The notes under the pieces: generated by a model
What the model was told of the DNA's origin: nothing
Database searches by the model: none
Seen by the model: only the letters and a program-made list of their open reading frames with translations
Source: Candidatus Neomarinimicrobiota bacterium
Lineage (GTDB): Bacteria; Fidelibacterota; Fidelibacteria; Fidelibacterales; Fidelibacteraceae
Direction of reading: 5' to 3'
Length of the DNA: 64,000 nucleotides
Assembly (NCBI GenBank): GCA_021157965.1
Contig: JAGGVO010000004.1
Location: 1-64,000, forward strand
Position numbers and translations under genes: made by a program
Shown: positions 6,506 through 64,000 of the stretch, piece after piece
Layout of the letters: the number at the start of each line of letters is the position of its first letter
Numbering within the stretch: the first letter of the stretch is position 1

Positions 6506-6514
6506 GAGGTGTCT

Positions 6515-48064: not shown

Positions 48065-48071
48065 AGGAGGT

Positions 48072-48275
48072 ATGATGAACGTGAGAAAAATTCTTGTGTA
48101 TTTTGCCGGAATTTTCACGGTAACTTTTATTGTTAATGTTATTGTGACATTTTTCTACAGTTGGATTACTCATGGCACGGCGATGGCCGAATGGGGAATC
48201 TCTTTTTGCCTGGCTCTCACCCTGGGTTTTGTCATGACATGGGTTCATGCCAGGGATCATGTGCAGCACAAATAA
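48072..48275 (+). CDS. small two-span membrane protein
   Basis: A 67-residue protein I do not recognise. Two hydrophobic segments (about 7-29 and 40-58) are joined by a short loop; the C-terminus is HARDHVQHK. A strong AAGGAGG sits directly upstream of the ATG, seven bases after the kinase stop. It is likely co-transcribed with the kinase and could modulate its membrane sensor, which is inference. Confidence 0.68.
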   Translation: MMNVRKILVYFAGIFTVTFIVNVIVTFFYSWITHGTAMAEWGISFCLALTLGFVMTWVHARDHVQHK

Positions 48276-48299
48276 ATGAAGTATCCCGGAGAGGTTATA

Positions 48300-49073
48300 G
48301 TGAAAAATTGGACTATTTGGATAATGATATTGCTTGTTTATGCCGGATGTACGGCATCTAAACAAGACAAAGCACTGGTATACAGCCATGGTGCTGTTAC
48401 ACGGACTGACACCAGTCAGAAACAAATCCATCTGGTATTTACGGGCGATGAGTATGCCGACGGTGGACCGGTTATTCGTGAAGTTTTGGACAAATATGGC
48501 ATTAAAGCCTCTTTTTTTCTGACGGGCAATTTCTATAGGAACCCTGATTTCCAGCCCATCATTGAGGGATTGCGGGAGGATGGCCATTACCTGGGAGCTC
48601 ATTCTGACAGGCACTTGTTATATGCCAGCTGGGAAAATCGCGATTCCACCCTGGTCAGCCGGGAAGAATTTGAAAGGGATGTGCTGAACAATTACCGGGA
48701 GATGTTCCGCTTTGGCATCCAAAAAGAAGAGGCACCTTATTATCTGCCGTCTTATGAATGGTATAACGAAGAAATTGCCCGCTGGACAAAGGAATTAGGA
48801 CTTGTTCTGGTCAATTTCAGTCCAGGCACCTATTCAAATGCCGATTATACCATCCCGGACATGGGAAACCGTTATATCCCGTCGGATACCATCTTTGAAC
48901 GGATTCTAAATTATGAGGAAGACAACGGGTTGAACGGGTTTATATTACTTTTACATATTGGTGTTCATCCTGAAAGGCCCGACCCCTTTTATTATCAACT
49001 GGATTCTTTGATACAGGTATTGAAAAAGCGGGGGTACACTTTCAACCTTCTGGACAAAGCTATTCCATCCTGA
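48300..49073 (+). CDS. polysaccharide deacetylase-like lipoprotein
   Basis: NodB-fold carbohydrate esterase relative, 257 residues. The GTG at 48300 has GGAGAGG five bases upstream; an ATG at 48276 would abut the previous stop. From this start the N-terminus is lipoprotein-like, with Cys after LLVYAG. Motif 1 reads HLVFTGDEYADGG, so the usual Asp-Asp pair of TFDD is changed to Gly-Asp. The metal-binding HSDRH motif and the SFFLTGNF strand are kept. Such FTGDE-type proteins are known from Bacteroidetes, and their substrate is unclear. It may be a cell-envelope lipoprotein. Confidence 0.7.
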   Translation: MKNWTIWIMILLVYAGCTASKQDKALVYSHGAVTRTDTSQKQIHLVFTGDEYADGGPVIREVLDKYGIKASFFLTGNFYRNPDFQPIIEGLREDGHYLGAHSDRHLLYASWENRDSTLVSREEFERDVLNNYREMFRFGIQKEEAPYYLPSYEWYNEEIARWTKELGLVLVNFSPGTYSNADYTIPDMGNRYIPSDTIFERILNYEEDNGLNGFILLLHIGVHPERPDPFYYQLDSLIQVLKKRGYTFNLLDKAIPS

Positions 49074-49101
49074 ATAAAAATGAATGAATAATTTCTATTT
49101 T

Positions 49102-49833
49102 TTAATCGTCCGGGTCGTCGTCTGGATTATCGACATATAAAAAGGCGATACGGACCTTTTCGGACCGGTCTTTTATGGGAACAAACTTGAATTTAAGTTC
49201 CAGGGAGGAATTCCTGATTGGCAGCTCCAGCGTGGCTGTAAATTCTTTGACCTGGGCATCCTTCAGGGCCGCCAGTAAGAATTGCCGAAAAAAACGTTCA
49301 TTATTAGGTTGTTTTTCAATCACATTAAAGCTGAATATATCCTGTTCAACACCAAAAGCTTGCTGAAGGGGTTTTGTAAATTTGAAAACCGATTTGTCAA
49401 AATCAGCCATAATTATTTTCCGGCTTGCCCGTCTGAAAAGGACTTCCAGAGCCCGGAGACTCAGGGCTGTTCGGTCTGCCCGTAATGTGTCGTACGTTTC
49501 CAAATGTTCTGCCACCTTGGTTGCCAGATTTGTAATCAGAGTTATCTCGTCGTCTATCCAGGAAATATCGTGTATACCTGTGGAAAAATCTCCGGATAGA
49601 AGACGACGAAAATAATTGACAAGTCGCTTATTAAACCGGAAAATGCGAAGAGTTAAGTATATCCAAAAGCCGATATATAAAAGAGTAATAACGAGTACAA
49701 AGAAAAACAAGGAAAAGGTATCAACCAGATAAATGGCTGCAATCAATCCTCCTAAACCTGTCAACCCCGGAAAGAACCAGAGAATCTTCAAAGGCAGTTT
49801 AAAACTCCTGTCTCTTTCCTTTTTTTTCTTCAT
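49102..49833 (-). CDS. membrane protein with PAS-like domain in the Trk operon
   Basis: A 243-residue protein of unknown function. Two membrane segments (about 18-40 and 44-66) are followed by a HAMP-like linker (about 70-125) and a mixed alpha/beta C-terminal region resembling a PAS fold (about 135-235). It ends in an acidic tail (NPDDDPDD). It is the third gene after trkH and trkA, separated by only two bases, so it is likely a regulatory partner of potassium uptake. I see no kinase or cyclase motif. Confidence 0.65.
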   Translation of the reverse strand: MKKKKERDRSFKLPLKILWFFPGLTGLGGLIAAIYLVDTFSLFFFVLVITLLYIGFWIYLTLRIFRFNKRLVNYFRRLLSGDFSTGIHDISWIDDEITLITNLATKVAEHLETYDTLRADRTALSLRALEVLFRRASRKIIMADFDKSVFKFTKPLQQAFGVEQDIFSFNVIEKQPNNERFFRQFLLAALKDAQVKEFTATLELPIRNSSLELKFKFVPIKDRSEKVRIAFLYVDNPDDDPDD

Positions 49834-49835
49834 GG

Positions 49836-50522
49836 TTAATCCTTTGCGAATTTTTCAATATTCCCATCTGAACCGGCAACAAGAAGGATATCACCTTCCT
49901 GTAGTTTTTCCGTAGGTAATGGGACATCATTGTATTCCTCCCGAAAAGTTCTGTCTCCTTCTTCGGTAATATCCGGTATATAGCGTTTGATACCTACAAT
50001 GTTCACATTGTAATTTTTCCGGGGATTCATCTGCACCAGCGTTTTTCCGATATATTTATCGGGTATTTTCACTTCGGCAATGCTATGGCCTTCGGATATA
50101 GGGATAAATTTCGTTACATTGCTTGATATGAGTCCCCGGGCAATTGTTTTCCCCATTTGTTCTTCAATGCTGACAATCTCATCGATATCCATGATTCGGA
50201 GGATTTCCCGCTGAAGGTCATTGATCGCCCGGGCCCAGATTTTTTTAATACCCATTTTTTTCAGCAGGAGTGTCGTGAGCAGATTGGCTTCCACGTCATC
50301 TCCGATGCAGACAACGGCCAGATCCACATCTTTAATGGCGATACCCTCCAGGGCTGTTCTGTCCATGGAATTCAAAGCAACGGCATAGGTAACCGATTCT
50401 TTCACGGCTTCGATTTGATCCTTATTAATGTCAATGGCAATCACCTGAGCACCATGTTCTGTCAGTTCCAGTGCCAAGGTTCTTCCAAAGGTCCCCAAAC
50501 CGATGACTGCTATACTTCGCAT
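49836..50522 (-). CDS. trkA: Trk/Ktr potassium uptake NAD-binding protein
   Basis: Cytoplasmic RCK subunit gating the TrkH/KtrB channel in response to nucleotides. The 228-residue protein has the N-terminal Rossmann motif VIGLGTFGRTLALELTEHGAQVI and D(32)INKD-like acidic residue for NAD, then an RCK_C domain (about 140-220). Single-RCK length indicates the KtrA type. It lies 24 bases downstream of trkH. Confidence 0.93.
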   Translation of the reverse strand: MRSIAVIGLGTFGRTLALELTEHGAQVIAIDINKDQIEAVKESVTYAVALNSMDRTALEGIAIKDVDLAVVCIGDDVEANLLTTLLLKKMGIKKIWARAINDLQREILRIMDIDEIVSIEEQMGKTIARGLISSNVTKFIPISEGHSIAEVKIPDKYIGKTLVQMNPRKNYNVNIVGIKRYIPDITEEGDRTFREEYNDVPLPTEKLQEGDILLVAGSDGNIEKFAKD

Positions 50523-50546
50523 AATCTTACTCCAGTTTTAAAAACT

Positions 50547-52250
50547 CTATCCAATCATAATGTGTTCTTCGGCATAGGTATAATTTTGAGGTTTATTGCC
50601 GAAGACCAGGGCATATCCGATGGTCAGGGGACCCAGCCGTCCGATAAACATCAGAATCATTATCAAAATTTTACCGGTATTGGATAAATCCCCGGTAATT
50701 CCGGTGGATAGTCCCACTGTTCCTACGGCGCTGATGGTTTCGAATAGAATATCCATGAAAGGAAAAGGTTCTACATAGACCAGTGCCAGGAGAAGGACTC
50801 CGATAAAAACCAAATAGAATAAAAGGACTGTCAGTGCTTTTTGAATGGTATCGGCAGAGATGGTCCGTTTCATGACTTCCAGATTGTTTTTGGACGTCAC
50901 TCCCCGGATCATGGTCAGCCATAAAACGGCAAAGGTAGTGGTTTTTAATCCGCCGCCTGTGGAGCCGGGAGATGCGCCGATAAACATGAGAAAAATCATA
51001 AGGAGCAGGGTAGGTGAAGACATAGTGGAGATTAGTGCCGTATTAAAGCCGGCGGTTCGTGTCGTTACGGATTGGAAAAAGGAGAGCAGCAGGGCATTTC
51101 GTGTGGAGTCTGTCCCGAAATGCTGTCTTTCAAAAAGGTAAATTCCTGCCATACCTGCTACAATCAGAATAAAGGTAACTCGAAGGACAATTCGGGTTTG
51201 TACTTTCAAACGGGGGATGCGGCTTTTCTTCCCGGAAAACAATTTTTGAAAAGCGGTGGTTATATTTCTCAAAGCCAAAAAGCCAAGTCCACCAATGATA
51301 ATCAGGCCGGCTATAATAAAATTTGTCGCCAGATCAAACCGATGAGGCATCAAGCTGTCTGTATTTGTCGAAAATCCGGCGTTGCAAAAAGCAGATACGG
51401 AGTGAAAGACGGAATGATAGATGGTTTGCCCCCAGGTGGGGTAAAAATCCCGCCAGGCAAAAACAAGTCCAACAGCCCCGATAAACTCTACAATAAATGT
51501 CAGTTTAATGATAAAAAAGATGATTCGAAAAGCGTCAGAAAGCGTATCATTATCCAGAACATTCTGGACCAGTGTTCTGTCCTTGATGCTCATCCTTTTA
51601 CCCCCGACAAGAGCTAAAAATACGGAAAAGGTCATGATTCCCAACCCGCCGAGTTGAATAAGAATAGCTATGACGCTTTGACCGATGGTATTAAACCACG
51701 TGGCGGTATCCCGGACAATCAATCCCGTGACGCATATAGCCGATGTAGAGGTAAACATGGCATCCACAAGAGGTGTTTGAACGCCGGATGTAGTAACTAT
51801 GGGGAGCGTCAGAACTACGGCGCCGGCACAGATAGTCAGAAAAAAGGAGAGAATCATAAGCCGAGCGGGGTGAAGGCCCAGATTGCTGATAAGACTCCTG
51901 GCTTTCCGCAAACGAGAAAAAATCATGACGATGATGATGATCTGTTTCAGGATGATTGACAAGGCGTCATCATGGATGAAAGGATAATGCTGAAACAGGG
52001 GGATAAAAACAATGAAATCGTACCAATTTCCTTTTATGTGCTGAAATTTATTTTTTGAAATGAGAATTTTAATGATGACATCGCTGATAAACAGAATCAG
52101 GATTCCGGCATTTAATTTATTGAAAAAGAGTAAATATGGTGCCGCATAATGTGTTCTTTCAAACATCAGGCTGAAAAGGGCAAAAATGGCTGTAATTCCA
52201 ACCACTTTATTCAAAAATGAAACAAGGGATTTGTAACGATCTTTAATCAT
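50547..52250 (-). CDS. trkH: TrkH/KtrB-family potassium channel subunit
   Basis: Inner-membrane potassium translocating subunit, 567 residues. The first 120 residues hold three to four extra hydrophobic segments. The four-fold M1-P-M2 repeat follows with selectivity-filter-like segments SAICVTGL, SAFCNAGFS, TTRTAGFNT and SAVGTVGLS. Long N-terminal versions are common outside the Firmicutes KtrB. No clear Shine-Dalgarno sequence is seen at this ATG, so the start is less certain than the family call. Confidence 0.92.
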   Translation of the reverse strand: MIKDRYKSLVSFLNKVVGITAIFALFSLMFERTHYAAPYLLFFNKLNAGILILFISDVIIKILISKNKFQHIKGNWYDFIVFIPLFQHYPFIHDDALSIILKQIIIIVMIFSRLRKARSLISNLGLHPARLMILSFFLTICAGAVVLTLPIVTTSGVQTPLVDAMFTSTSAICVTGLIVRDTATWFNTIGQSVIAILIQLGGLGIMTFSVFLALVGGKRMSIKDRTLVQNVLDNDTLSDAFRIIFFIIKLTFIVEFIGAVGLVFAWRDFYPTWGQTIYHSVFHSVSAFCNAGFSTNTDSLMPHRFDLATNFIIAGLIIIGGLGFLALRNITTAFQKLFSGKKSRIPRLKVQTRIVLRVTFILIVAGMAGIYLFERQHFGTDSTRNALLLSFFQSVTTRTAGFNTALISTMSSPTLLLMIFLMFIGASPGSTGGGLKTTTFAVLWLTMIRGVTSKNNLEVMKRTISADTIQKALTVLLFYLVFIGVLLLALVYVEPFPFMDILFETISAVGTVGLSTGITGDLSNTGKILIMILMFIGRLGPLTIGYALVFGNKPQNYTYAEEHIMIG

Positions 52251-52287
52251 TTATTTAATTTAAATCAATCTGAGATTCAAAAAAAGA

Positions 52288-52317
52288 AGTATAGAATCTA
52301 AAATATCACATTGATAA
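52288..52317 (-). promoter_or_regulatory. putative promoter of the trk operon
   Basis: On the minus strand TTATCA (52317-52312) and TATACT (52293-52288) are 18 bases apart; the -10 matches the consensus at five of six positions. AGATTC and GAATCT form inverted arms around the -10 (52274-52299). The start codon is 37 bases further on. Confidence 0.45.
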
Positions 52318-52324
52318 ATATCAT

Positions 52325-53482
52325 TTAGAGCTTGATTCTGATTTTATACCGGGTAAGCAAGTGAGTTATTAGCAATATAAAAGCTGTAAAGAGAAAGGCT
52401 CTGATGATACCCACACCGGCATGGATATGCCCCCATTGAAAATACGGAATCGCCAGGGTATCAAAAAGAATATAGAAAACAGCCGGAAGCAAATAGGCTG
52501 TGAGGGGATTTTGTGCCGAAGGTTGAAGGGGTTTGCCCCATTTTTTCAGGCCTTTTACATCGGTGACAAGATAAATCAGCAGAAAAATCAAGACGCACAG
52601 GGCTGCGCTCCAGAGTCCCCACACAGGAGTTGCCTGAATTTTAGAAACGATGTACACCTTGTGCAATAACCAGCCGGCAAGCCATAATCCGAAGGCTTCA
52701 CCCGGCAAATGTTTCAGGATAATACCCTGTCCCTTTTTCAGTTGCAAGCCGGCATAGAGTCCTGCCAGAACAATCAGCACATGGGTCCCGATAAATTTCC
52801 CCGGGTGAATAAAATCCACAAGGGGCTGAAGGGCATCGAACCGGCCGGATACTTCACCAATGAAAAGAAGGATGCAAAACCCCATGCTGAGGATGATGAT
52901 GTCTTCACGGTCTTTAAAAAACAGATAAATCAGGGAAGCCACGGCATAAGCCCATCCAATGAGTCCCAATATACCCCACCAGCCTGTCCGGAGCCATTGG
53001 CTGTTGGCTATATCGCCCCGGCGGTAGGTTATGGCAAGGAAAAGGAGCAGAATCCATCCGATTTTTGGAATATATTGTTTTACTTTGGGTCTGTCTTCCC
53101 AGATGTTCCAAATCATAAAAAAGGAAGTATACATCAGCAGTTGCCAGAGTGTTTTGGGGAGCAGGGCAATATGAGGATTATACGCACCGGAATTCAGCAT
53201 CATAACCCCCATAATGATTAAAGCCAGGCTTCGTTCGCCGATATGTCTGATTGAGGGAATAATGCCATGAGACATTCGTTTTTCAAGGGCTATAGGTATA
53301 ACCATCCCTACAATAAAGAGAAAGGCGGGGAATACCAGATCCGGCAAGGTCATCCCATCGGTATTGGCACCTGCATGATGCAGCCATCCCGGTGCATCCG
53401 GCACGGAAGCCACATCATTTACAAAGATCATCAGGGCTATAGTAAGTCCGCGGAAAAGATCAATACTGATCACTCGTTTCAT
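52325..53482 (-). CDS. HGSNAT/NagX-like membrane acyltransferase (DUF5009)
   Basis: Multi-pass membrane protein of 385 residues with about 11 hydrophobic segments. The N-terminus RVISIDLFRGLTIALMIFVND and the following PDLVFPAFLFIVG match bacterial homologues of heparan-alpha-glucosaminide N-acetyltransferase (DUF5009/NagX). Homologues acetylate amino sugars across the membrane from acetyl-CoA. It lies downstream of a SIS protein, sugar permease and ROK kinase, which fits an amino-sugar role. A strong terminator-like hairpin ends only a few bases before its ribosome binding site (AAAGGGGG), so its expression may depend on read-through. Confidence 0.82.
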   Translation of the reverse strand: MKRVISIDLFRGLTIALMIFVNDVASVPDAPGWLHHAGANTDGMTLPDLVFPAFLFIVGMVIPIALEKRMSHGIIPSIRHIGERSLALIIMGVMMLNSGAYNPHIALLPKTLWQLLMYTSFFMIWNIWEDRPKVKQYIPKIGWILLLFLAITYRRGDIANSQWLRTGWWGILGLIGWAYAVASLIYLFFKDREDIIILSMGFCILLFIGEVSGRFDALQPLVDFIHPGKFIGTHVLIVLAGLYAGLQLKKGQGIILKHLPGEAFGLWLAGWLLHKVYIVSKIQATPVWGLWSAALCVLIFLLIYLVTDVKGLKKWGKPLQPSAQNPLTAYLLPAVFYILFDTLAIPYFQWGHIHAGVGIIRAFLFTAFILLITHLLTRYKIRIKL

Positions 53483-53494
53483 GGAAATCCCCCT

Positions 53495-53557
53495 TTAATA
53501 AAAAAGTGCTGAGACTGCCTTATGGTTTGGGGGGAGGGGATAAGACAGCCTCAACAC
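53495..53557 (-). terminator. strong hairpin terminator or attenuator before the HGSNAT-like gene
   Basis: On the minus strand the arms 53557-53540 and 53523-53506 pair over 18 positions with three G-U wobbles and no mismatch, around a 16-base C-rich loop. TTTTTTATT follows at 53505-53497. This is the strongest Rho-independent terminator in the window. It ends the ROK-MFS-SIS operon, but lies directly against the Shine-Dalgarno sequence of the next gene. Confidence 0.88.
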
Positions 53558-53576
53558 AAAGAATTTCAATGGGGCG

Positions 53577-54335
53577 TCAAACGCCAACAATCCGTTTTTT
53601 ATATTCTTTCAGGGCTTCATTCAGCCTGTCATGAGCCCCGGGATCACCCACGTTATGACTTGGGTGAATATACAATTTTACGCCCCTGTCTGCCAATATT
53701 TCTGCAACCGTTGTGATGGTCATCCATACAGCCGTGACGAATGCGATTGTAGAAACGGGTCCGATTTTGTCCGGATGGTTTTTCAGCGGGACGGTTGCAT
53801 CTTCACCGGGGGCACAGGAATCAACTACAATATCCGCCAATTCAAACATGGTTTTTCCGCAGGAATGTTTGGTTGTCCGTCCTTCAGCCGCTTTTTGTGC
53901 TCCATAGACAATCAGTTTCATTCCCTTCTCCTTGGCTTTCAGGGCAACATCAATGTTCACGGCATTCACGCCGGAATGGGAAAATATCCACATGCAATCC
54001 CGTGAATCAAAATTGTAGCCTTCCATGATCTGGGTGCCGTAACCTTCCACCCGTTCCAGAAAAACAAATTGGTGTACACCCATATCTCCCACAATATGGG
54101 TAAAAAAGGAGAGAGGAAGTTCAATAATGGGATGGAATCCCACAAATCCTCCGATACGGGGGTACATTTCCTCGATGGGCAGGGTTGCATGCCCACATCC
54201 GAATGTGTGGACCCAACGTCCTGCTTCGATGGTATCGGCCATGGCTTCGGCTGCTTTCCGGATGGCATCCATCTGGGTATTCTCAATAGCATTCATCACT
54301 TCATACGCATTTTTTAACCATTCTTTTGCTAACAT
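53577..54335 (-). CDS. SIS-domain sugar isomerase-like protein (COG4821 type)
   Basis: A 252-residue SIS-fold protein that probably binds or isomerises a phosphosugar. HTFGCGHATLPIEEMYPRIGG near residue 42 and IFSHSGVNAVNIDVALKAKEKGM near 115 are the phosphosugar-binding segments. Relatives (COG4821) are found next to sugar permeases and kinases. The start is placed at ATG 54335 after AAAAGGAAC; an ATG at 54386 would lie inside the MFS gene. It directly follows that gene. Confidence 0.82.
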   Translation of the reverse strand: MLAKEWLKNAYEVMNAIENTQMDAIRKAAEAMADTIEAGRWVHTFGCGHATLPIEEMYPRIGGFVGFHPIIELPLSFFTHIVGDMGVHQFVFLERVEGYGTQIMEGYNFDSRDCMWIFSHSGVNAVNIDVALKAKEKGMKLIVYGAQKAAEGRTTKHSCGKTMFELADIVVDSCAPGEDATVPLKNHPDKIGPVSTIAFVTAVWMTITTVAEILADRGVKLYIHPSHNVGDPGAHDRLNEALKEYKKRIVGV

Positions 54336-54336
54336 A

Positions 54337-55518
54337 TCACTGTTCCTTTTTTGTTTGAACGTTAAAAATTCCAATGGCAAGACCAAACATGATGATCACA
54401 CTGAGTATCAGCATGAGCGGATAATAAGTAAGTCCGAAAGAATTGGTGAGTATTCCAGTCAAATAATTCAGAAGGATGTTTCCCAACAGGGCAATTACCA
54501 GGACAAAACTGAAAGCGGATCCGCTTAATTCGGGATACCGTTCGCCTACTTTCGCCAAGATTACCGGAAATCCGGCAGAAAACCCCAGTCCTAACAGAAT
54601 CAGTGAAAAAGCAGCCGTAACTGCCGGGGCAGAATAGAGTATGGCCGATCCGGTAAACTGAAGTCCGATACTGCCGAAGAGAATAAGGGTAAAACAAATA
54701 TAGAGAACTTTCACCGGGGATAATTTCCGGAGGGCCCAGCCCAGGATCAGCCGTCCGGCGGTAATGGATGCCACCAGAAAGGTGAGAAACATAACGGCAT
54801 TTGTCCGGGAAAGTCCTACCTGATCATGAGTCAGATATGCAGCAGACCAGTTATTGGCCATGCCTTCCAAAGCACTTTCAAAAAACAGAATAAATCCCAA
54901 CCCGATCAGAATACCATCCCTGAAAAAGGATTTCAGCCGGGATACGGGAAGTTTATCCGTGTGTTTAGGCGGGGGAAAGGGGATGATCAGAAAGTAGATG
55001 ACAGGAATGATGAGAAAGAGTGCCACAAAGCGGATGATCTGTGCGAGACTCCAAATTTTCATCAGGAGGCCGGTTAATAAAGGCATCCCCAGAGCTCCGA
55101 TTCCATAAAAGACACCCAAAAGGCTCAAGGCAGAACTTTTATTTTCTGTGTTGATATCGGAAACCATGGCATTGGTCCCTCCGTTGATGGCACCGCCGCC
55201 CAATCCGATAAGAAAGAATGCTGCCTGGACAGGTAAAAGAGTTTCCGTGGCAACCATCATCCAAAACCCTGCAGATACCAGAAGGGTGCTGATGATCAGC
55301 AGATACTTATATCCGAAGCGGTCGGCAAAGGGACCAAAAACAAGGCTTCCCAAAAGGATACCGGCCGGCAATAAGGCAGCCAGGCTTCCCAGTTGAGCAT
55401 TTGTCAGACCGAATTGTTCAGATAGAAAGGTATTCACCGTTCCTAAGGATATCATCACAATACCAAATAGAAGCATTCCCGCATACGCTGCCAGAATTTG
55501 CAGCATGGATTTTTTCAT
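54337..55518 (-). CDS. MFS sugar permease (FHS/FucP-like)
   Basis: A 393-residue, 12-span major facilitator. The first half carries PFADRFGYKYLL between helices 2 and 3 and a Gly-rich helix 5 start (LGGGAINGGTNAM), features of fucose/GlcNAc (FHS) permeases. The position between a ROK kinase and a SIS protein supports monosaccharide or amino-sugar import. The substrate is not determined. Its ATG overlaps the ROK stop. Confidence 0.83.
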   Translation of the reverse strand: MKKSMLQILAAYAGMLLFGIVMISLGTVNTFLSEQFGLTNAQLGSLAALLPAGILLGSLVFGPFADRFGYKYLLIISTLLVSAGFWMMVATETLLPVQAAFFLIGLGGGAINGGTNAMVSDINTENKSSALSLLGVFYGIGALGMPLLTGLLMKIWSLAQIIRFVALFLIIPVIYFLIIPFPPPKHTDKLPVSRLKSFFRDGILIGLGFILFFESALEGMANNWSAAYLTHDQVGLSRTNAVMFLTFLVASITAGRLILGWALRKLSPVKVLYICFTLILFGSIGLQFTGSAILYSAPAVTAAFSLILLGLGFSAGFPVILAKVGERYPELSGSAFSFVLVIALLGNILLNYLTGILTNSFGLTYYPLMLILSVIIMFGLAIGIFNVQTKKEQ

Positions 55519-56483
55519 GATTGGTTCTCCTTTATGTTTTTATCAAAGGGGAGGGCAGCAGCACCATATAAGGCTGCATTTCCCTCCAGGGCGGAAGCTT
55601 TGAGTGTAACCTGCTGAATGGCAATGGGTTGTGCCCACTTTTTTGCTTCCTTTAAAATATCCGGCAGAAAGCGGACAGCGGGGCCGAAAACCCCGCCGCC
55701 GAAAATGATGATTTCCGGATTGAAAAGGCTTACGTAATTGGCAACTGCCATCCCCCAGAGTTCTATGGCCTGATTCAGAACAAAGCGGCTTAGTGAATCA
55801 CCGGAATCATAGTGTGCAAAGATATCCTCTGATTTGGGCGGAGCGTCCTGATATCTGAAATATCCCTGATATTCCGGATTTTTTTCCATGTATTCTTTGC
55901 CGCTTCGTGAAAGTCCGTCTCCCGAAGCGTAGTATTCAAAACATCCCATCGCTTTGAATTTATCCTTGTAAGGACGTTCCAGAGCCATCCAGCCGGTTGC
56001 GCCTGATATGGCACTAAAACCGCTTAATACGTGACCATCCACCATGATGCCTGCACCAATACCTGTTCCAACAGTGATAAATACAGCATTGCGGGTTCCG
56101 GCGGCATTCCCGTGCATTGCCTCTCCCCGAAGACAACATGTCCTGTCGCCATCGGCAAAAACCGGGGTATCTTTCAAAGCCGGATATTTTTTTAACAGAG
56201 ATACCAGGGGAAGTTCATCCCATCCGGGGATATTGGGAGCCCATACTGTTTCCCGGTATGGACCTGCAATACCGGGAACGCAAACACCTACGCCGGCCAG
56301 ATCACCATCTTTTATATTGATACGATCTGTCAGTCGCTGAATGGTCTGCCTGATAAGGTCCACAACTTCTTCACCAGAGCGACCGGCCAGCAATTCATAA
56401 TGTTCGGACAGTATTTTTCCCTCTTCGTCTATCAGGGCGCCTTTGACTTTTGTCCCCCCCAGATCAACGCCAATGGATTTCAT
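55515..56483 (-). CDS. ROK family sugar kinase
   Basis: Probable ATP-dependent hexose or amino-sugar kinase, 322 residues. The phosphate loop VDLGGTKVKGALID is intact at 5-18, and TVGTGIGAGIMVDG near 140 is the second ATP motif. The catalytic Asp region reads FADGDRTCCLRGE. The ROK zinc motif CxCGxxGC is absent; where it would lie the protein reads FKAMGCFEYYASG. It is thus a divergent, zinc-less ROK. It shares WAPNIPGW and NQAI(E/Q)-(L/F)WGMA blocks with the protein at 58882. First gene of a three-gene minus-strand operon. Confidence 0.85.
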   Translation of the reverse strand: MKSIGVDLGGTKVKGALIDEEGKILSEHYELLAGRSGEEVVDLIRQTIQRLTDRINIKDGDLAGVGVCVPGIAGPYRETVWAPNIPGWDELPLVSLLKKYPALKDTPVFADGDRTCCLRGEAMHGNAAGTRNAVFITVGTGIGAGIMVDGHVLSGFSAISGATGWMALERPYKDKFKAMGCFEYYASGDGLSRSGKEYMEKNPEYQGYFRYQDAPPKSEDIFAHYDSGDSLSRFVLNQAIELWGMAVANYVSLFNPEIIIFGGGVFGPAVRFLPDILKEAKKWAQPIAIQQVTLKASALEGNAALYGAAALPFDKNIKENQS

Positions 56484-56834
56484 TATTTCCCTTTCTCTGA
56501 ATCTTCAGATTAACGATAAAACTCTCCGGAAACTTCCGGACCCCGCAACTTTTTTAAACCGGAAAGGATAAGTAAGTGTTTTTGTTTCTCGGAATTAACA
56601 CAGGGTCTATGAAAATTCCGTTAAAGCTAAATTATTCACAATGCCCCAATCTGTCAAGTAAAATGTCCCTGCCGATCCTTACGGTTTTGCTGACGAATAA
56701 AATTGTGTGGAAAGGATGGACTGATGGTTATATATTCAACGGCAATCTTCAGTTAATGATTTTCCATCGTCCTGAAACGGGTTCAGTGCTATTTGAGCCA
56801 TTTCGTAAATAATGTTAAAAAAAGAGGGTTTCTC
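56484..56834. other. divergent regulatory region between ROK operon and GH9 gene
   Basis: This 350-base gap separates divergently transcribed genes and must hold both promoters. A 16-base palindrome at 56525-56540 lies 42-57 bases before the ROK ATG. A 78-codon frame at 56576-56812 has no good start context or recognisable product and is not called. No canonical -35/-10 pair could be fixed on either strand. Confidence 0.5.
56525..56540. promoter_or_regulatory. palindromic operator candidate
   Basis: TCCGGAA and TTCCGGA are perfect inverted arms around AC. The position just upstream of the ROK-MFS-SIS operon suits a dimeric repressor, for example a LacI- or GntR-type sugar regulator, none of which is encoded nearby. 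TCCGGA words are common in this genome's coding DNA, which lowers the weight of the match. Confidence 0.4.
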
Positions 56835-58643
56835 ATGAAACGCATATTACATCTTTCTTTGATGCTTGCCATATTTCTGGTGAGCCTGAAGGGGGCTTCA
56901 GGGCCTGAGGTTTATTTTCGGATTAATCAACTGGGATATCATGCGGAAGGGTTAAAGACTGCCATCCTCTTTTCGAAAGAAGATTTGTCGGGGCGGGCGG
57001 TGGAAATCAAAACGAAAAAGCTTTTTCAGAAAACAGTATTAAAAAGACAAGTAACGGAAAATAAAGGGGCTTTTGGACAATTTCCTTTTCATTACAGAAT
57101 AGATTTTTCCACGCTGCAGGAACCGGGAGAATATTGGATTGAACTGGCAGGGACGGATATTCGCTCCCATACATTTTCCATAAAGGAATCGGGGATCTAT
57201 TCAGAAGCCCGTGAAAAGATGCTGGGATATATCCGACAGCAGCGATGCGGGTATAATCCTTTTCTGGATGAAGTCTGCCACACAAAAGACGGGCGGACTG
57301 CCTACGGTCCTATGTCGGACGGGACCTTTGTTTATGTCTTTGGCGGCTGGCACGACGCGGCAGACCTTTTGCAGTACATGATGACCAGCGGCAATACGAT
57401 TGGCAGACTCTTACTGGCCTATAGTGAAACAGAGGTCCGGTTTAATGATAAGGTAAACGCTTTGGGACAGCCTTTTCCGAACGGTATTCCGGATATACTT
57501 GATGAAGCGAAGTGGGGGTTGGACTGGATGCTGAGAATGCACCCCGAACCGGATCAACTTTTTCATCAGATTGCCGATGACCGGGATCATATCGGTTTTA
57601 AGTATCCATACAAGGATTCATCGGATTACGGGTGGGGACCCGAGAGTTACCGGGTTGTCTATTATGCCACCGGCAAGCCCCAGGGACTGGGGAGATTTAT
57701 CAATACTTCCACGGGACTGGCAAATTTAGCAGGCCGGTATGCTGCTGTTATGGCCAGGGCGGCCCGTATCTGGAAAGAAGACCTGAATCAGCCGGGGCAG
57801 GCTGAGATATTTTTAAAAGCCGGAAAAGAAGTCTACCTCATGGGGCAAAAACAACCCGGCAGCCAGGAAGGAGTACCCCATAAGGCCGGCTATCGCTATC
57901 ATGAAAGCACATGGGCCGACGATATGGAATGGGGCGCTGCAGAATTGTACCTGACAACCGGGGATTCCACTTATCTTGAAGAAGCGAAGAATTATGCCCT
58001 GCAGGCGGGAACCGACTCCTGGTTTGGAAAGGATACAGCCCGGCATTATGAATACTACCCATTCATGAATGTGGGCCATTATGTGCTTCACGGATGTGTT
58101 GATGAGGGTTTTCAGGATATTCTGGAGGATTTTTACCGCAAAGAACTAAGTGCGGTTCATAAGCGTGCGGAAATGTACCCCTGGAATGTGGGACACCCAT
58201 TTATCTGGTGCTCCAATAATCTGGCCTCAGCATTGGTTGTTGAATCCATCCTGTATGAACGGATGACCGGTGACACACGGTTTCGTCAACTGGCGGCCGA
58301 TACACGGGACTGGATATTCGGGAAAAATCCCTGGGGGGTGAGTCAGGTGATTGATGTAGGAATTGTCACGCCACAGAATGCACATGGTTCCATGTTAAGC
58401 CTGGAAGGAATTAAAACACCGGGCGGACTCCTGGATGGACCTCTCTATTTATCTACCCATAAATTGCATCACGCATATATCCAAATACCGGATGAGGAGC
58501 CCTATAAAGACTTTCAGAGTAAGATAGTGGTATACCATGACCTGATTGGGGATTATGCCACGAACGAACCGACTCTTGACGGAACGGCTGAAGCATTATT
58601 CATGATCTGCCTCTCGGATGAGGGAGGCGGAGTGAGGGAATGA
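56835..58643 (+). CDS. secreted glycoside hydrolase family 9 enzyme
   Basis: A 602-residue exported beta-glycosidase with a signal peptide (about 1-21). The N-terminal Ig-like cellulase domain (RINQLGYHAEGLKTAILF, about 25-120) is followed by the GH9 barrel. GGWHDAADLLQYM holds the Asp pair at 174 and 177, and the acid Glu578 is in ATNEPTLDGTAEA. NPWGVSQV and HRHXX-like HAYIQIP blocks complete the fold. There is no dockerin or carbohydrate-binding module. GH9 includes endoglucanases, cellodextrinases and exo-beta-glucosaminidases; the surrounding genes make the last plausible. The start has AAAGAGGG seven bases upstream. Confidence 0.9.
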   Translation: MKRILHLSLMLAIFLVSLKGASGPEVYFRINQLGYHAEGLKTAILFSKEDLSGRAVEIKTKKLFQKTVLKRQVTENKGAFGQFPFHYRIDFSTLQEPGEYWIELAGTDIRSHTFSIKESGIYSEAREKMLGYIRQQRCGYNPFLDEVCHTKDGRTAYGPMSDGTFVYVFGGWHDAADLLQYMMTSGNTIGRLLLAYSETEVRFNDKVNALGQPFPNGIPDILDEAKWGLDWMLRMHPEPDQLFHQIADDRDHIGFKYPYKDSSDYGWGPESYRVVYYATGKPQGLGRFINTSTGLANLAGRYAAVMARAARIWKEDLNQPGQAEIFLKAGKEVYLMGQKQPGSQEGVPHKAGYRYHESTWADDMEWGAAELYLTTGDSTYLEEAKNYALQAGTDSWFGKDTARHYEYYPFMNVGHYVLHGCVDEGFQDILEDFYRKELSAVHKRAEMYPWNVGHPFIWCSNNLASALVVESILYERMTGDTRFRQLAADTRDWIFGKNPWGVSQVIDVGIVTPQNAHGSMLSLEGIKTPGGLLDGPLYLSTHKLHHAYIQIPDEEPYKDFQSKIVVYHDLIGDYATNEPTLDGTAEALFMICLSDEGGGVRE

Positions 58644-58881
58644 TGGAGAAAGGGGGAGACGGTGAGTTGAGGAGAAAGATTGCACCGGATTTAAGTCCGG
58701 AGAGATAAGAGTACGAAAGCACGAAGAGATAAAAACACAATATATTAAAAATAATATAAACTTGCATTTGATTGCGGTCGGGATTATTTTATCCCCGGGG
58801 GGATATACGTATAAACATCTTCCTATATAGTGAGATAAGAATTTTATAAATGCCTGTGTTCTAACCCAACCCGCAACCCTC
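58644..58881. other. convergent gap with degenerate repeats
   Basis: No gene is seen. The gap begins with GA-rich repeat units (GGTGAGTTGAGGAG, about 58660) and ends with their inverted counterpart (CCCTCTCAACG, about 58877). It contains CGAAAGCACGAAGAGAT (about 58713) and a 16-base palindrome at 58790. The layout resembles the DNA around the S23 pseudogene, but without a coding remnant. Confidence 0.45.
58790..58805. repeat. 16-base GC palindrome
   Basis: TATCCCC (58790-58796) and GGGGATA (58799-58805) are perfect inverted arms around GG in an otherwise AT-rich gap, followed by ATACGTAT-like symmetry. It could act as an operator or a hairpin in the 3' end of the GH9 transcript. Confidence 0.4.
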
Positions 58882-59859
58882 TCAACGTTTTAACGTCTCA
58901 TCTTCCATACTCTCAATAAATGCCAGTCGGGCGGCACCGATAAGGCTTCCTGACCCGCCCAGGGTAGTCGGTTCCAGACTGACACTTTTCAGGCAGTAAG
59001 GTTGGGACCATTTGGCCATTTCCTCCCGGATGCGGCTGATAAACTGGGTAGCTGGCCCAAAAAGGCTCCCACCGATGATGACTTTCTCAGGGTTCAGCAG
59101 ACTGATCATATTGGCAATTGCCATTCCCCAGAACTGTATAGCCTGGTTTATGATGCTGATGGCTATAGTATCCCGTTCCTTGTAGGCATTGAAAACATCC
59201 TGCATATTGAATTGTTCACCTTTGGATAAAAGGACTCCTTCATAGCCTGGAGCATTGTTGATGAGATCTTTGGCAATTTTCACGAGTCCGTTCCCCGAGG
59301 CATGATATTCGAGGAATCCCCTTGTCCGGTATTCGGGATGAAAAGAAGGAGACAGGGCAGTCCACCCTGCGGCCCCGGCAATATGATCATTGCCCCGGAG
59401 GATTTGTCCGTCCACGAGCAATCCGGCATAAATGCCGGCACCAATGTGCAGGTAAACCAGGTTTTTGATGCCCTTGGCATTCCCCTGCCAGGTTTCCCCT
59501 AAGATGCAACAACATCGGTCCGCCATAATGTGAATGGAAGTTTTTGGAGGAAAAAGGTCAATCAACTTTTCCCGAATAGGAAATTTGCGCCATCCGGGAA
59601 TATTGGGTGCCCAGATTTCTCCGCTAACATCATTATAGATACCGGGGACCGAGATACCGGCATAACGGATTGCAATTCCGGCTTCCCTGGCCTGCTCATA
59701 AACAATAGCAATCTGATCCCCGATGCAAGACAAAACCTGAAGTCCTGTCCGTTCGGAATAATGCTTTTTCCGCCTGAAATACCATTTCCCCTCTTTGTTG
59801 ACAACAGAGACGGATACGGCATCTGAACGGATGTCCACAGCCAAAACATGGTCAATCAT
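58882..59859 (-). CDS. ROK-like protein with degenerate ATP site
   Basis: A 325-residue paralogue of the ROK kinase at 55515. It shares WAPNIPGW, GNAKGIKNLVYLHIGAGIYAG and NQAIQFWGMAIANMISLLNPEKVIIGG. The phosphate loop that should read DLGGTK is DIRSDA, and the second motif TGIGAG is AGIYAG; the zinc motif CxCGxxGC is also missing. It is probably not an ordinary kinase, and there is no DNA-binding helix-turn-helix, so it is not a normal ROK repressor either. ATG 59859 has AGGA six bases upstream; a TTG at 59865 is the alternative. Confidence 0.8.
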   Translation of the reverse strand: MIDHVLAVDIRSDAVSVSVVNKEGKWYFRRKKHYSERTGLQVLSCIGDQIAIVYEQAREAGIAIRYAGISVPGIYNDVSGEIWAPNIPGWRKFPIREKLIDLFPPKTSIHIMADRCCCILGETWQGNAKGIKNLVYLHIGAGIYAGLLVDGQILRGNDHIAGAAGWTALSPSFHPEYRTRGFLEYHASGNGLVKIAKDLINNAPGYEGVLLSKGEQFNMQDVFNAYKERDTIAISIINQAIQFWGMAIANMISLLNPEKVIIGGSLFGPATQFISRIREEMAKWSQPYCLKSVSLEPTTLGGSGSLIGAARLAFIESMEDETLKR

Positions 59860-59865
59860 GATCAA

Positions 59866-60196
59866 TCCTGAATTTGTGCGTCAAGGTAGGACTTAACAGC
59901 GAATTAATCAATTATTATTTATGAAGAGAACCGTGGATATCCGACATGGAAAAAATAATTCAACGGCTTTTAAAATTAGCTGTTGACACAATGGGGAAAT
60001 CCAAGTATCTTAAATAAGATCAGCTTCAATCCTTTTGTTGCCGGTCACAATTCAAAAAAATCCAACTAAACACACAGATAGTACCGGAAAACGCAACTTT
60101 GCTGTCTGGAAATGTTTCAGGGCCATTATCATGTAACTGAAGATTGCATGAGATGTGATCATTGACAATAAATAATCAATGAGAATTGGAGTATGT
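59866..60196. other. divergent region upstream of the TonB receptor gene
   Basis: This gap separates the minus-strand ROK-like gene from the plus-strand receptor gene. It contains a near-consensus promoter at 59983-60011 and a leader of about 180 bases without an obvious riboswitch or reading frame. A small inverted repeat (CATTGA 60160-60165, TCAATG 60176-60181) lies just before the ribosome binding site. Confidence 0.5.
59983..60011 (+). promoter_or_regulatory. near-consensus sigma-70 promoter of the TonB receptor gene
   Basis: TTGACA (59983-59988) and TATCTT (60006-60011) are exactly 17 bases apart. The predicted transcript start near 60018 leaves a leader of about 180 bases before ATG 60197, unusually long for this compact genome. 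Confidence 0.65.
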
Positions 60197-63100
60197 ATGA
60201 AACGTAAAAGTCGTAGTACAGTGTACCTGTTTCTGTTTGGTATCTTCCTTGCCGGTATTTTACATGCCGCATCGGGTAAGATAACAGGCAGGGTGTATGA
60301 CAGACAGACGGGTGAACCCTTGCCGGGCGTCAATGTGATAATAACCCATCAGGAACTCAATGATAAGATGGTTCCACTGGATGATGTTCTCGGAGCAGCA
60401 TCAGGGGAAGATGGCATCTATTTTATCCTGAATGTCCCCCCCGGGACCTATACGATTTCGGCCCGAATGGTCGGGTATACCGAATTGAAAAAAGAGGGTG
60501 TCCGGGTAAATATGGACAGGACCATCACGGTTGATTTTCCTCTGGACCAGACGGTTCTGGAAATGCAATCGGTAACGGTCATGGCCGAGAGGGACGTGGT
60601 CCGGGCTGATGTGGCTTCCAGTCAGGAAATTGTGGATGCCGACAGGATTGACGCCATGCCGGTCATGCGGATGGATGAATTTATCGGCAGTATGAAAGGA
60701 ATTGAATTGGTTGCCGGTGATGAAGGAACCGGCCTGAGTATTCGGGGTGGTGATATTCGCGAGACAGATGTTCAGATTGACGGCATCAGTTCCCGGGATC
60801 CCCGGTCCGGTAATGCCTATCTCGCCATTAACGCCTCTTCTGTGGAGGAAATGCAGGTGATGACCGGGGGATTTGAGGCTAAATACGGTGGTTTCCGAAG
60901 CGGACTCGTAAATATTGTGACGAAAGATGGCTCGCGGGAACGCTATTCCTTTGCCGGGAATTTTAATTACACCCCGGCAGGCCAAAAACGTTACTTTGGT
61001 CAAAACCCGTGGGATGAGGATTTTCTGATTTACCGGATTTTTGCCGATACAACTGAAAACGGATGGGCGTATATCGGTACACGGAATGACACCAGTGGAC
61101 TCATCCCCAATGAATTTCAATCCTTCAGAGGTTGGGATAACACCCGGGAAGGACGAGCTAATTATGAGATTATCGGATTGGATGCCAAACTGACACCGGA
61201 ACAAAAACGTCAGTTGTGGCTTCTCCAGCATCCGACCAATGAAATTTACAACAAGCCGGACTTCTATATGGAAGGAACCTTAACCGGACCTGTCCCGGGT
61301 GCCTGGATTCCTTTTCTGGGAGAAATTTTTGAACGGTCAACGTTTATGCTGGCCGGAAAATATGAACAATCCCAGTTTGCTTATCCTTTAGGTCCCCGGG
61401 ATGCATACCGGGACTGGAACACTCATCTCAAAATTACTACCCGGTTGACGGAAAAAACGAAAATCTCTGTGAATGCCATGTATGCGCGGGTGGAAAGTAA
61501 CAGCAGCAGCAGACCATCTACAGCCGGCGGCGTGCTGCAGGATAATACTCTCAGATATGGTTTTCTTAATAACAATAACCAGTCCACGTATCAACAGGCC
61601 CGGATTCTGGGTGGCAATCTGGAGAATATGTTTAACCGGAGTCGTCTGATGTATATTGATCAGGACTGGTTCCTCGGTGGTTTTAAAATCAACCATACCC
61701 TCTCTCCCCGGGCTTTCTTTACTCTCGAAGCCCAGGCTACCTATCAGGACCACAATGTGTACAGTATGAGTGCCGATACCTCTCTGAACAAATCCTGGGT
61801 TAAACTGGATTCGGGACTGTATATCCTGAATTATCCCAAAATCGGTACTCCTTATGCTTCCACAAACTGGGGTAAAGATATTACGGACTATTTCTGGATT
61901 TATGGCGGCTTGCAGAATGTGGATTCGTCTTATTCCGTCAACTCATCGTTAAAAGGTGATCTGAAAGTACAAATCGGCAGAAACCATGAGGTGGAAACAG
62001 GGTTCGTTTTCAACTATACCCATTCTAAAGTCTATGCCGGAACCTGGCTCCAGTCTAAAAAAATGTTTACTCCGGATACCTGGCAGTACTATACCATTAA
62101 TCCCATTGAAGCAGCCTTGTATATTCAGGATAAAATGGAATTTGAGGGACTGATCGCCATGATCGGACTCAGGGGGGATTATTTTAACCCCATGCGAAAA
62201 TCCTATAAACTCTCCCATCCCTTTGATTCCCATTATGCTGCATTTTATAACCTTGTGTATGAATATATCCCCGGCGATTGGGGCTCCTTTGAACGATGGA
62301 AAGTCTTCAGGGATATGCTGGAAGAACCGCCCGGATGGCCTACAAAGGGTGTGGAATCTCAGTTCAAACTCTCTCCACGCCTGGGCGTTTCTTACCCCAT
62401 TGCCGTGGGCAGCAAAATGTACTTCAATTACGGACATTTTTATCAAAGACCGTCCTACTCTTTCCTCTATAATCAATCCATTGCCGTGGACTATGCCAAC
62501 ATTCCTTCACCCGGACTCCCCTTTGGTAAAACGGTGTCCTATGAATTTGGATACGAACAGCAGCTCTTACGACAGTACCTTTTCAATATTGTTCTCTATT
62601 ACAAAGATGTGAAAAATGATCCGTTACCCCGGACATATGTGAACTACTGGGAAGATTATGCCATCACCAAATATTTTCCTGATGCCTTTTCCGATGTCAG
62701 AGGAATTGAACTCCGTTTTGAAAAGAATTACGGGAAATGGTTTACCTTCTGGGCTAATTTGGATTATATGCTGAAAAGCTGGGGACAAAGTGGTTTACGT
62801 TATGTCTATGAAAACCAGGTGACGGCTGGTGAGGCAAGCCGAACAGCCAATATTTCCACAGTGGAATCCTATCCCAAGGCGGATATCAGTCTGACATTTC
62901 ATTCTCCGGAAAAATTCGGTTTCCCCATGATGGGTATTTATCCCCTGGGCGGATGGCATCTGAATTTCCGCGGAAACTGGGATGATCGCGGAGAAATTGT
63001 TATCAAGCAGGATATGGTTACAGGTGAACAGTTTAAGGCGGATGTGGTGGATTATACCAATGTAGACACCAAACTGACCAAAGATATCAATATTAACGGA

Positions 63101-63349
63101 TTGACCTGCGAAATTGGTGTGACGGTCTTTAATCTGCTTAATCAGAAACGCCTCTATATCGGCGGCATGAATACAGCCCAGTATTCCCGGTATCAGGAAT
63201 CTCTCAAATTTCCCTTTGAAGAGGGAGAAGAACACGGCGATGATAAATGGGGCGAATGGGATAAGGATCATATCGACACCGGCTGGTTCGATGCACCTAT
63301 ATTCCTGAATCCCCGCCGGATTGTGGCTAATATTTCATTCAGTTTTTAA
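60197..63349 (+). CDS. TonB-dependent receptor with carboxypeptidase-regulatory N-terminus
   Basis: Outer-membrane active transporter, 1050 residues. A signal peptide (about 1-27, ending LHAAS) is followed by a carboxypeptidase-regulatory-like beta domain (about 30-120; GKITGRVYDRQTGEPLPGVN). The plug domain (about 130-235) contains RGGDIRETDVQIDGIS and GGFEAKYGGFRSGLVNIVTK. The remainder is a large beta barrel ending FLNPRRIVANISFSF, with the C-terminal Phe needed for Bam assembly. GGAG lies five bases before ATG 60197; an upstream ATG at 60179 is unlikely. Position after GH9 and ROK genes suggests oligosaccharide uptake, not proven. Confidence 0.9.
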   Translation: MKRKSRSTVYLFLFGIFLAGILHAASGKITGRVYDRQTGEPLPGVNVIITHQELNDKMVPLDDVLGAASGEDGIYFILNVPPGTYTISARMVGYTELKKEGVRVNMDRTITVDFPLDQTVLEMQSVTVMAERDVVRADVASSQEIVDADRIDAMPVMRMDEFIGSMKGIELVAGDEGTGLSIRGGDIRETDVQIDGISSRDPRSGNAYLAINASSVEEMQVMTGGFEAKYGGFRSGLVNIVTKDGSRERYSFAGNFNYTPAGQKRYFGQNPWDEDFLIYRIFADTTENGWAYIGTRNDTSGLIPNEFQSFRGWDNTREGRANYEIIGLDAKLTPEQKRQLWLLQHPTNEIYNKPDFYMEGTLTGPVPGAWIPFLGEIFERSTFMLAGKYEQSQFAYPLGPRDAYRDWNTHLKITTRLTEKTKISVNAMYARVESNSSSRPSTAGGVLQDNTLRYGFLNNNNQSTYQQARILGGNLENMFNRSRLMYIDQDWFLGGFKINHTLSPRAFFTLEAQATYQDHNVYSMSADTSLNKSWVKLDSGLYILNYPKIGTPYASTNWGKDITDYFWIYGGLQNVDSSYSVNSSLKGDLKVQIGRNHEVETGFVFNYTHSKVYAGTWLQSKKMFTPDTWQYYTINPIEAALYIQDKMEFEGLIAMIGLRGDYFNPMRKSYKLSHPFDSHYAAFYNLVYEYIPGDWGSFERWKVFRDMLEEPPGWPTKGVESQFKLSPRLGVSYPIAVGSKMYFNYGHFYQRPSYSFLYNQSIAVDYANIPSPGLPFGKTVSYEFGYEQQLLRQYLFNIVLYYKDVKNDPLPRTYVNYWEDYAITKYFPDAFSDVRGIELRFEKNYGKWFTFWANLDYMLKSWGQSGLRYVYENQVTAGEASRTANISTVESYPKADISLTFHSPEKFGFPMMGIYPLGGWHLNFRGNWDDRGEIVIKQDMVTGEQFKADVVDYTNVDTKLTKDININGLTCEIGVTVFNLLNQKRLYIGGMNTAQYSRYQESLKFPFEEGEEHGDDKWGEWDKDHIDTGWFDAPIFLNPRRIVANISFSF

Positions 63350-63364
63350 ATAATCGGGGGTCAT

Positions 63365-64000
63365 ATGAAACACATATTTATAAAGTATACCTATTCTTTC
63401 CTTTCCCTGCTCCTGGTATTGCTTTTTCTGGCACCTGATCTGAATGCCCAGAAAAATTTTACCGGACCTCCCATGTTCATCAATGTCAATAAGATCAACC
63501 TGACGATGAACAAGGTGAATGGGGAGGGACAGTTTACAAATCAGTATAGCTGGATGCTGACCGGCACCGGCCCGGAACAGACGGAGGAATGGTACTATCC
63601 TGCGGATAACTGGCATTCCCAGATGTTGTACCAGATATTTAATCCTGTCTGTCCTGACGATAACGGCTTTACCGATGAGACGGGTCAGCATAAAATCATT
63701 CCCTACAAATGCGTGAATAAGGGAAAAAATGACTACTCCTGGGAGAAAAGGCGCTACCGGACCCCTTATGTAACTGTCGATGGTGTCCGCCAGAATCAGG
63801 ATTACACATGGGATGTGGATCCGGATTTAAATGCCGATATTGTGGCTGAATGGGAGGATATCCTGAGAGCCTACGGCATTCGGAGTAAAGTGCAGGTCTA
63901 TGCATTCAGTAATCCCAATCATCAGGACTACATCATCTACAAGGCCACGTATAAATTCACCGGCGAAACCATGCGACCCATTGAGAATCCTGACTCTTCC
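63365..64000 (+). CDS. secreted protein, partial at window end, unknown
   Basis: The first 212 codons are open to the end of the window. A signal peptide (about 8-29, LLVLLFLAPDLNA) leads into an extracellular sequence rich in Trp, Tyr and Asn with segments such as YPADNWHSQMLYQIFNP and DYTWDVDPDLNADIVAEW. I do not recognise the family. The ATG follows GGGGG by five bases and lies 16 bases after the receptor gene, so it is probably co-transcribed and may be the surface partner of that receptor, as SusD-like proteins are in Bacteroidetes; it shows no SusD motif that I can see. Confidence 0.7.
   Translation, partial: MKHIFIKYTYSFLSLLLVLLFLAPDLNAQKNFTGPPMFINVNKINLTMNKVNGEGQFTNQYSWMLTGTGPEQTEEWYYPADNWHSQMLYQIFNPVCPDDNGFTDETGQHKIIPYKCVNKGKNDYSWEKRRYRTPYVTVDGVRQNQDYTWDVDPDLNADIVAEWEDILRAYGIRSKVQVYAFSNPNHQDYIIYKATYKFTGETMRPIENPDSS

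Follow-up and report, generated by a model that had tools for sequence, protein, structure and literature searches.

Gene content of the locus

The window, by which we mean the whole 64,000-base stretch of DNA analysed here, is the first 64000 bases of an 81,821-base contig in a 2.3 Mb draft genome of a Candidatus Neomarinimicrobiota bacterium (GCA_021157965.1). All the genes that the first-pass annotation had named towards its end are present: those for a NagX/HGSNAT-like protein, a SIS-fold protein, an MFS permease, two ROK-family proteins (ROK1 and ROK2), a GH9 hydrolase, a TonB-dependent receptor and the receptor's secreted partner (SEC). The locus is larger than was first stated. A polysaccharide deacetylase gene (DAC) lies upstream, separated from the remainder of the locus by a potassium-uptake operon. 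Downstream of position 64000, the contig carries the rest of SEC and, after it, two genes whose products belong to the PorV family and to the NagA deacetylase family. The features are listed below; the starts given for SIS, GH9 and ROK2 are ATG codons internal to the listed open reading frames.

48276–49073, + strand: DAC, NodB-fold polysaccharide deacetylase, probable lipoprotein (PF01522; PdaA 1ny1, E 1e-10)
52325–53482, − strand: NagX/HGSNAT-like membrane protein (DUF5009), proposed periplasmic glucosamine N-acetyltransferase (PF16401; human HGSNAT structures, E 1e-7)
53577–54335, − strand: SIS-fold sugar-phosphate enzyme, UPF0309/NagS group (NF002805, 226 bits; NagS 9eol)
54337–55518, − strand: MFS permease (PF07690)
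55515–56483, − strand: ROK1 sugar kinase with altered sugar pocket (PF00480; motif table of ~65 ROK1 proteins)
56742–56755, + strand: GCAATCTTCAGTTA element in the ROK1/GH9 divergent gap (genome search, at most one mismatch)
56835–58643, + strand: GH9 hydrolase with CelD_N Ig-like domain and signal-peptide-like N terminus (PF00759, 227 bits; PF02927)
58882–59859, − strand: ROK2, probable pseudokinase sensor (PF00480 only)
60134–60147, − strand: second copy of GCAATCTTCAGTTA, in the ROK2/TonB divergent gap (genome search, at most one mismatch)
60179–63349, + strand: TonB-dependent outer-membrane receptor (CarboxypepD_reg and Plug domain profile matches)
63365–64000, continuing to contig position 65515, + strand: SEC, secreted partner, 716 aa (no Pfam family)
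contig 65532–66566, beyond the window: PorV/PorQ-family protein (NF033709, 136 bits, cut-off 90)
contig 66615–67739, beyond the window: NagA-family deacetylase (TIGR00221, 233.6, cut-off 225.65)

An Rfam search of positions 48000–64000 found no RNA element.

Conservation and linkage

The genes are linked in relatives of the organism, which disposes of one objection that had been anticipated to the amino-sugar interpretation. In a set of 80 related loci taken from named genomes of Bacteroidota, Ignavibacteriota and Marinimicrobia, the ROK1, MFS and SIS clusters have members in 71, 74 and 79 loci respectively, and in most loci the three genes adjoin one another. Other members of the locus also recur beside SIS: NagA in 21 of the 80 loci, GH9 in 15, the deacetylase in 10 and NagX in 7. 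For a gene present twice in a 3.5 Mb genome, chance alone predicts about 0.7 loci, a comparison whose significance is only indicative as the loci are related by descent. The linkage is far above chance.

The ROK1-MFS-SIS module occurs in hundreds of genome stretches in these three groups. In other families of the phylum it is divergent to a TonB-SEC-PorV set, usually together with GH9 or NagA, and one Ignavibacteria locus (L108) contains the complete set of PorV, SEC, TonB, ROK2, ROK1, MFS, SIS, NagA, NagX, deacetylase and GH9 genes. Within the phylum, the GH9 clade is present in 13 of the 14 genomes that have SIS, compared with 7 of 47 others. In other phyla, genes for NagX, NagA, GH9, GH18, YdjC and the deacetylase recur beside the module. 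YdjC adjoins GH9 in L034, L053 and L189. We also noted a creatininase-family amidohydrolase gene directly 3' of SIS in different Bacteroidota (L103:10846-11655 and L104:3217-3987), which may encode a further enzyme of the pathway, and a phosphoribosyltransferase-like open reading frame of 172 aa at L002:10638-11156, a possible pseudogene (the frame at the same position in L024 has 473 aa).

ROK proteins and shared promoter elements

The first-pass annotation listed a second ROK-like protein beside the ROK kinase. The ATP phosphate loop (GGTK) is lost from ROK2 in all nine orthologs, which form one clade, so judging by its sequence ROK2 is probably a pseudokinase. Its sole family match is to PF00480, with no helix-turn-helix or DNA-binding domain found, and we infer a sensor role for it. 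A LacI regulator takes its place in other families. In one genome (G010), two separate frames make up ROK2, and the ROK1 gene is short (L031:6856-7861 and 5741-6541), reflecting either gene decay or an assembly error.

ROK1 keeps both the GGTK loop and the catalytic aspartate in a motif table of ~65 proteins. Its ExGH motif is replaced by AxGW, or by SxGW in some of the set. In known ROK kinases, the ExGH residues contact ring hydroxyls of the sugar; these contacts are kept in the known glucose and GlcNAc kinases. The best NCBIfam and PDB matches of ROK1 are glucokinases, with scores below the curated cut-offs for both glucokinase and NagK.

The element GCAATCTTCAGTTA is common to both divergent gaps of the locus in the window's genus, and a search of the entire genome, allowing one mismatch, finds it just twice, both times within the locus. 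The two gaps also have in common the 9-base word CGCAACTTT. Where LacI replaces ROK2, we found instead the palindrome TGTTATCGATAACA, which in one genome (G044) occurs in both gaps of the locus and nowhere else at one mismatch. In two others (G033 and G050), it occurs in the locus and at a few other sites, mostly inside unrelated genes or by another ROK-LacI cluster. A guessed palindrome in the window was dropped, having matches at chance level. Because the gaps share elements, the GH9/ROK1 and TonB/ROK2 units are probably one regulon.

The SIS enzyme

SIS matches the UPF0309/PRK02947 family above its cut-off, and its closest relatives are labelled Candidatus Neomarinimicrobiota or Marinimicrobia. 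It resembles the Streptomyces GlcNAc-6-phosphate dehydratase NagS (SCO4393) in its SIS/UPF0309 fold and in keeping residues H53, R64, E94, D179 and N228, the first four of which are essential in NagS; both proteins also have a tie to NagA, which for NagS is functional (PMC12680351). The two differ in setting, SIS being in a catabolic operon with a kinase and a permease, and in the sugar pocket, where S54 is replaced by A and S91 by V. Membership of NagS requires both serines and at least 58.7% identity to a known NagS, and at 28% identity we rejected SIS as NagS proper. Distant NagS homologs that were assayed were inactive (PMC12680351).

Two other assignments were rejected. SIS is not a stand-in for a missing NagB: proteins of the NagB family PF01182, which also includes 6-phosphogluconolactonases, are present in 32 of 32 genomes, and the window's own genome has a clear NagB, unlinked to the locus. 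Nor is it a stand-in for MurQ, found elsewhere at full score in 29 of 33 genomes. The locus NagA, which passes the equivalog cut-off of TIGR00221 narrowly, is itself a diverged second copy, with a canonical NagA elsewhere in the genome. Since carriers of SIS have NagB-family proteins and, nearly always, MurQ elsewhere, and the window's own genome has its canonical NagA, SIS would add a reaction and replace none that is known. Tentatively, ROK1, MFS and SIS may form an undescribed amino-sugar pathway parallel to the NagA-NagB route, in which ROK1 would phosphorylate a modified amino sugar and SIS would catalyze an elimination at C3 of the NagS/MurQ kind, a step that the diverged NagA would either precede or follow.

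GH9 hydrolase and deacetylase

The GH9 protein has the catalytic motifs HDAAD and NEP (HDAxD and NEPT are kept across the alignment). The motif PHxR of the aligned cellulases is absent from the locus clade, which has PHSS or similar instead, as well as clade-specific insertions. Loops that close the pocket beyond subsite −1 mark the GH9 exo-beta-glucosaminidase subgroup; our structure model is of moderate quality in the loops formed by the insertions. By both sequence and fold, its nearest solved relatives are the endoglucanases 3x17, J30 and CelD and the xyloglucanase BoGH9A. The earlier idea that this GH9 belongs with exo-beta-glucosaminidases fared poorly, because the Vibrio and Photobacterium enzymes score far lower: profile scores are 192 bits for 3x17 and 56–64 bits for VC0615, PBPRA0520 and VP2484 (a comparison of scores, not a tree), and the Vibrionaceae exo-glucosaminidases rank 17–23 in the fold search. 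A grouping with cellulases had been named as evidence against amino-sugar use, and it finds weak support in the solved endoglucanases, but the fusions described below point the other way. From its sequence, the protein is best called a member of an uncharacterised GH9 clade and no ordinary cellulase.

We found at least 10 proteins, of ~830–930 residues, in which GH9 is fused to a C-terminal deacetylase domain. Flagellimonas and other Bacteroidota have them, as do sister Marinimicrobia, the window's own family among these. DAC is homologous to the fused deacetylase domains of Bacteroidota (49–59% identity), and although it is a separate gene in the window, it is linked to the locus in relatives within the genus. 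This fusion to a deacetylase is our best argument for a de-N-acetylated amino sugar as the substrate of GH9. The GH9 glucosaminidase of Vibrio cholerae hydrolyzes the dimer of GlcN and leaves that of GlcNAc uncut (PMC6096475). The nearest solved relative of DAC is PdaA, a peptidoglycan enzyme.

Membrane proteins and uptake

The NagX-like protein matches DUF5009 and HGSNAT structures, but not PF07786. It has the sequence His-His-Ala before a DLVFP motif, not squarely aligned with the HGSNAT histidine. The role of NagX is derived from fitness data (PMC9007349). The permease, previously described as FHS-like, has a general match to MFS_1 and matches to unrelated subfamily models, none of them near its cut-off; no fucose/GlcNAc (FHS) model matched it, and no relative was found in the PDB.

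Compared with other families of the phylum, the TonB receptor keeps ~50–60% identity, and SEC, the more conserved of the two, ~61–68%. SEC is unusually conserved (51–84% identity over 12 members), but its predicted structure (pLDDT 56) was too poor for a structure search. In profile searches, no SusC model matched the receptor and no SusD model matched SEC, whereas true SusD neighbors do occur in Bacteroidota loci. Because the window's genome contains more TonB-SEC-PorV sets (L132, G000:C57:22000-41999, and L129, G000:C36:60001-75000), the triplet may serve more generally in this phylum, for uptake or for secretion.

Proposed route and substrate

We consider it rather probable that the locus is a single regulon for uptake and degradation of beta-linked amino-sugar oligosaccharides, most likely fragments of chitin. 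The general interpretation made at first pass, of an amino-sugar oligosaccharide locus that lacks SusC/D and PTS genes, is supported by the NagA gene downstream, the recurrence of NagX, NagA, GH9, GH18, YdjC and deacetylase genes, the linkage and the shared promoter elements. What has held is the type of locus and the linkage of its genes; the FHS permease, the GH9 grouping and the heparan-like substrate have not, and the second ROK-like protein is probably no kinase. For heparan, a non-systematic look at the loci examined noticed no lyase, sulfatase or uronidase.

In the route that we propose, a secreted chitinase encoded elsewhere would yield oligosaccharides, which the TonB receptor, SEC and the PorV-like protein would carry into the periplasm. 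The deacetylase would then take off one acetyl group, GH9 would release glucosamine, and NagX would re-acetylate it in the periplasm. The MFS permease would import the sugar and ROK1 would phosphorylate it, leaving the sugar phosphate to be handled by NagA, SIS or both, with the unlinked NagB acting last. Gene content, conservation, the GH9-deacetylase fusion and the common promoter elements are observed; we infer every substrate, every location and the order of the steps.

Several observations connect the locus with chitin. In L033, the LacI-controlled TonB operon has, between TonB and SEC, a gene for a GH18 chitinase that carries a type IX sorting tail, and GH18 genes lie near the ROK-MFS-SIS module in L097 and L104. 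The window's own genome encodes a secreted GH18 protein 36% identical to that of L033, two further GH18 matches and two GH20 proteins. Several features count against this reading: the closeness of GH9 to endoglucanases, the divergence of the locus NagA, the relationship of DAC to PdaA, the loss from ROK1 of the ExGH sugar contacts, and single relatives with AnmK or muramic-acid-type genes nearby.

The locus might instead salvage peptidoglycan sugars (MurNAc, anhydroMurNAc or GlcNAc-MurNAc): the deacetylase would be PdaA-like, ROK1 would phosphorylate MurNAc or another 3-O-substituted sugar, and SIS would act as an etherase-like lyase. PdaA is the closest solved deacetylase, SIS keeps NagS/MurQ-type catalytic residues, and ROK1 lacks the residues that touch ring hydroxyls in known ROK kinases. 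Two loci also point this way: AnmK, deacetylase and GH9 genes lie in one row at L197:2654-6452 (genome G161), and at L107:7594-17312 the ROK-MFS-SIS module is followed by a muramic-acid-like set of BadF-type kinase, GHL10, SusC/D and GH3. We nevertheless regard this source as unlikely, and favor chitin over it. Of 33 genomes, 29 already encode a full-score MurQ elsewhere and so have no need of another etherase; AnmK and the muramic-acid genes were each seen once, whereas GH18 chitinases co-occur in three loci; and TonB uptake with a secreted GH18 fits chitin better.

The same gene logic could also serve to degrade a different amino-sugar glycan, for instance biofilm poly-GlcNAc that is partly deacetylated or an amino-sugar exopolysaccharide, and the gene-level evidence is compatible with any beta-linked GlcNAc/GlcN glycan. 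We rate this slightly lower than peptidoglycan. The GH18 chitinases that several related loci contain or adjoin, and the secreted GH18 of the window's own genome, speak against it. Least probable is the degradation of beta-glucans (cellulose or xyloglucan fragments) by a GH9 cellulase and a ROK1 glucokinase, with the amino-sugar genes incidental. The best solved GH9 relatives (endoglucanases and BoGH9A) and the best ROK1 matches in NCBIfam and the PDB (glucokinases) agree with it, but ROK1 is under the glucokinase cut-off and without ExGH, GH9 is without PHxR, has clade-specific insertions and is fused to a deacetylase in relatives, and NagA, NagX and deacetylase genes recur at the loci.

Comparison with known systems

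The chitin route that we favor resembles the ChiA/Dac/GlmA system of Thermococcus kodakarensis, in which an oligosaccharide is deacetylated before an exo-beta-glucosaminidase frees glucosamine (PMC6566704). It differs in that the hydrolase is GH9 rather than GH35, the deacetylase has a NodB fold, the enzymes would be exported and uptake would be by TonB, relatives have GH9 and deacetylase in one fused protein, and NagX and NagA are added. The Vibrionaceae proteins VC0615 and PBPRA0520, from chitin operons, share with the locus a GH9 domain, an N-terminal beta-sandwich domain and an amino-sugar context (PMC6096475), but the locus GH9 is of a different clade, with lower profile and fold scores against them. 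The proposal for the Vibrio GH9 is that it works on sugars already imported by a PTS, whereas no PTS gene was seen at this locus.

NagX/NagP/NagA regulons for GlcNAc in Shewanella and Bacteroidota similarly bring together a NagX-type acetyltransferase, a permease, a kinase and NagA (PMC9007349). Here the permease is without a NagP-type match, SIS is extra, NagB is unlinked and there is a TonB-SEC-PorV triplet. A genome-based proposal for Chitinispirillum alkaliphilum likewise has periplasmic deacetylases followed by a GH9 chitobiase, but the passages on this route do not present the genes as a single locus, and they assign the GH9 enzymes to the cytoplasm (PMC4814513).

In outline, then, the locus is an ordinary one for the use of amino-sugar oligosaccharides; the combination of genes is new, with the SIS enzyme family at its core. 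That family, whose distant members were inactive on GlcNAc-6-phosphate when tested, gains a catabolic setting, and substrates that can be tested are now available for the uncharacterised GH9 clade, whose fusion with a deacetylase would be a self-contained chitin-oligosaccharide enzyme. The TonB, SEC and PorV proteins add a candidate SusC/D-independent uptake triplet in a phylum with few cultures.
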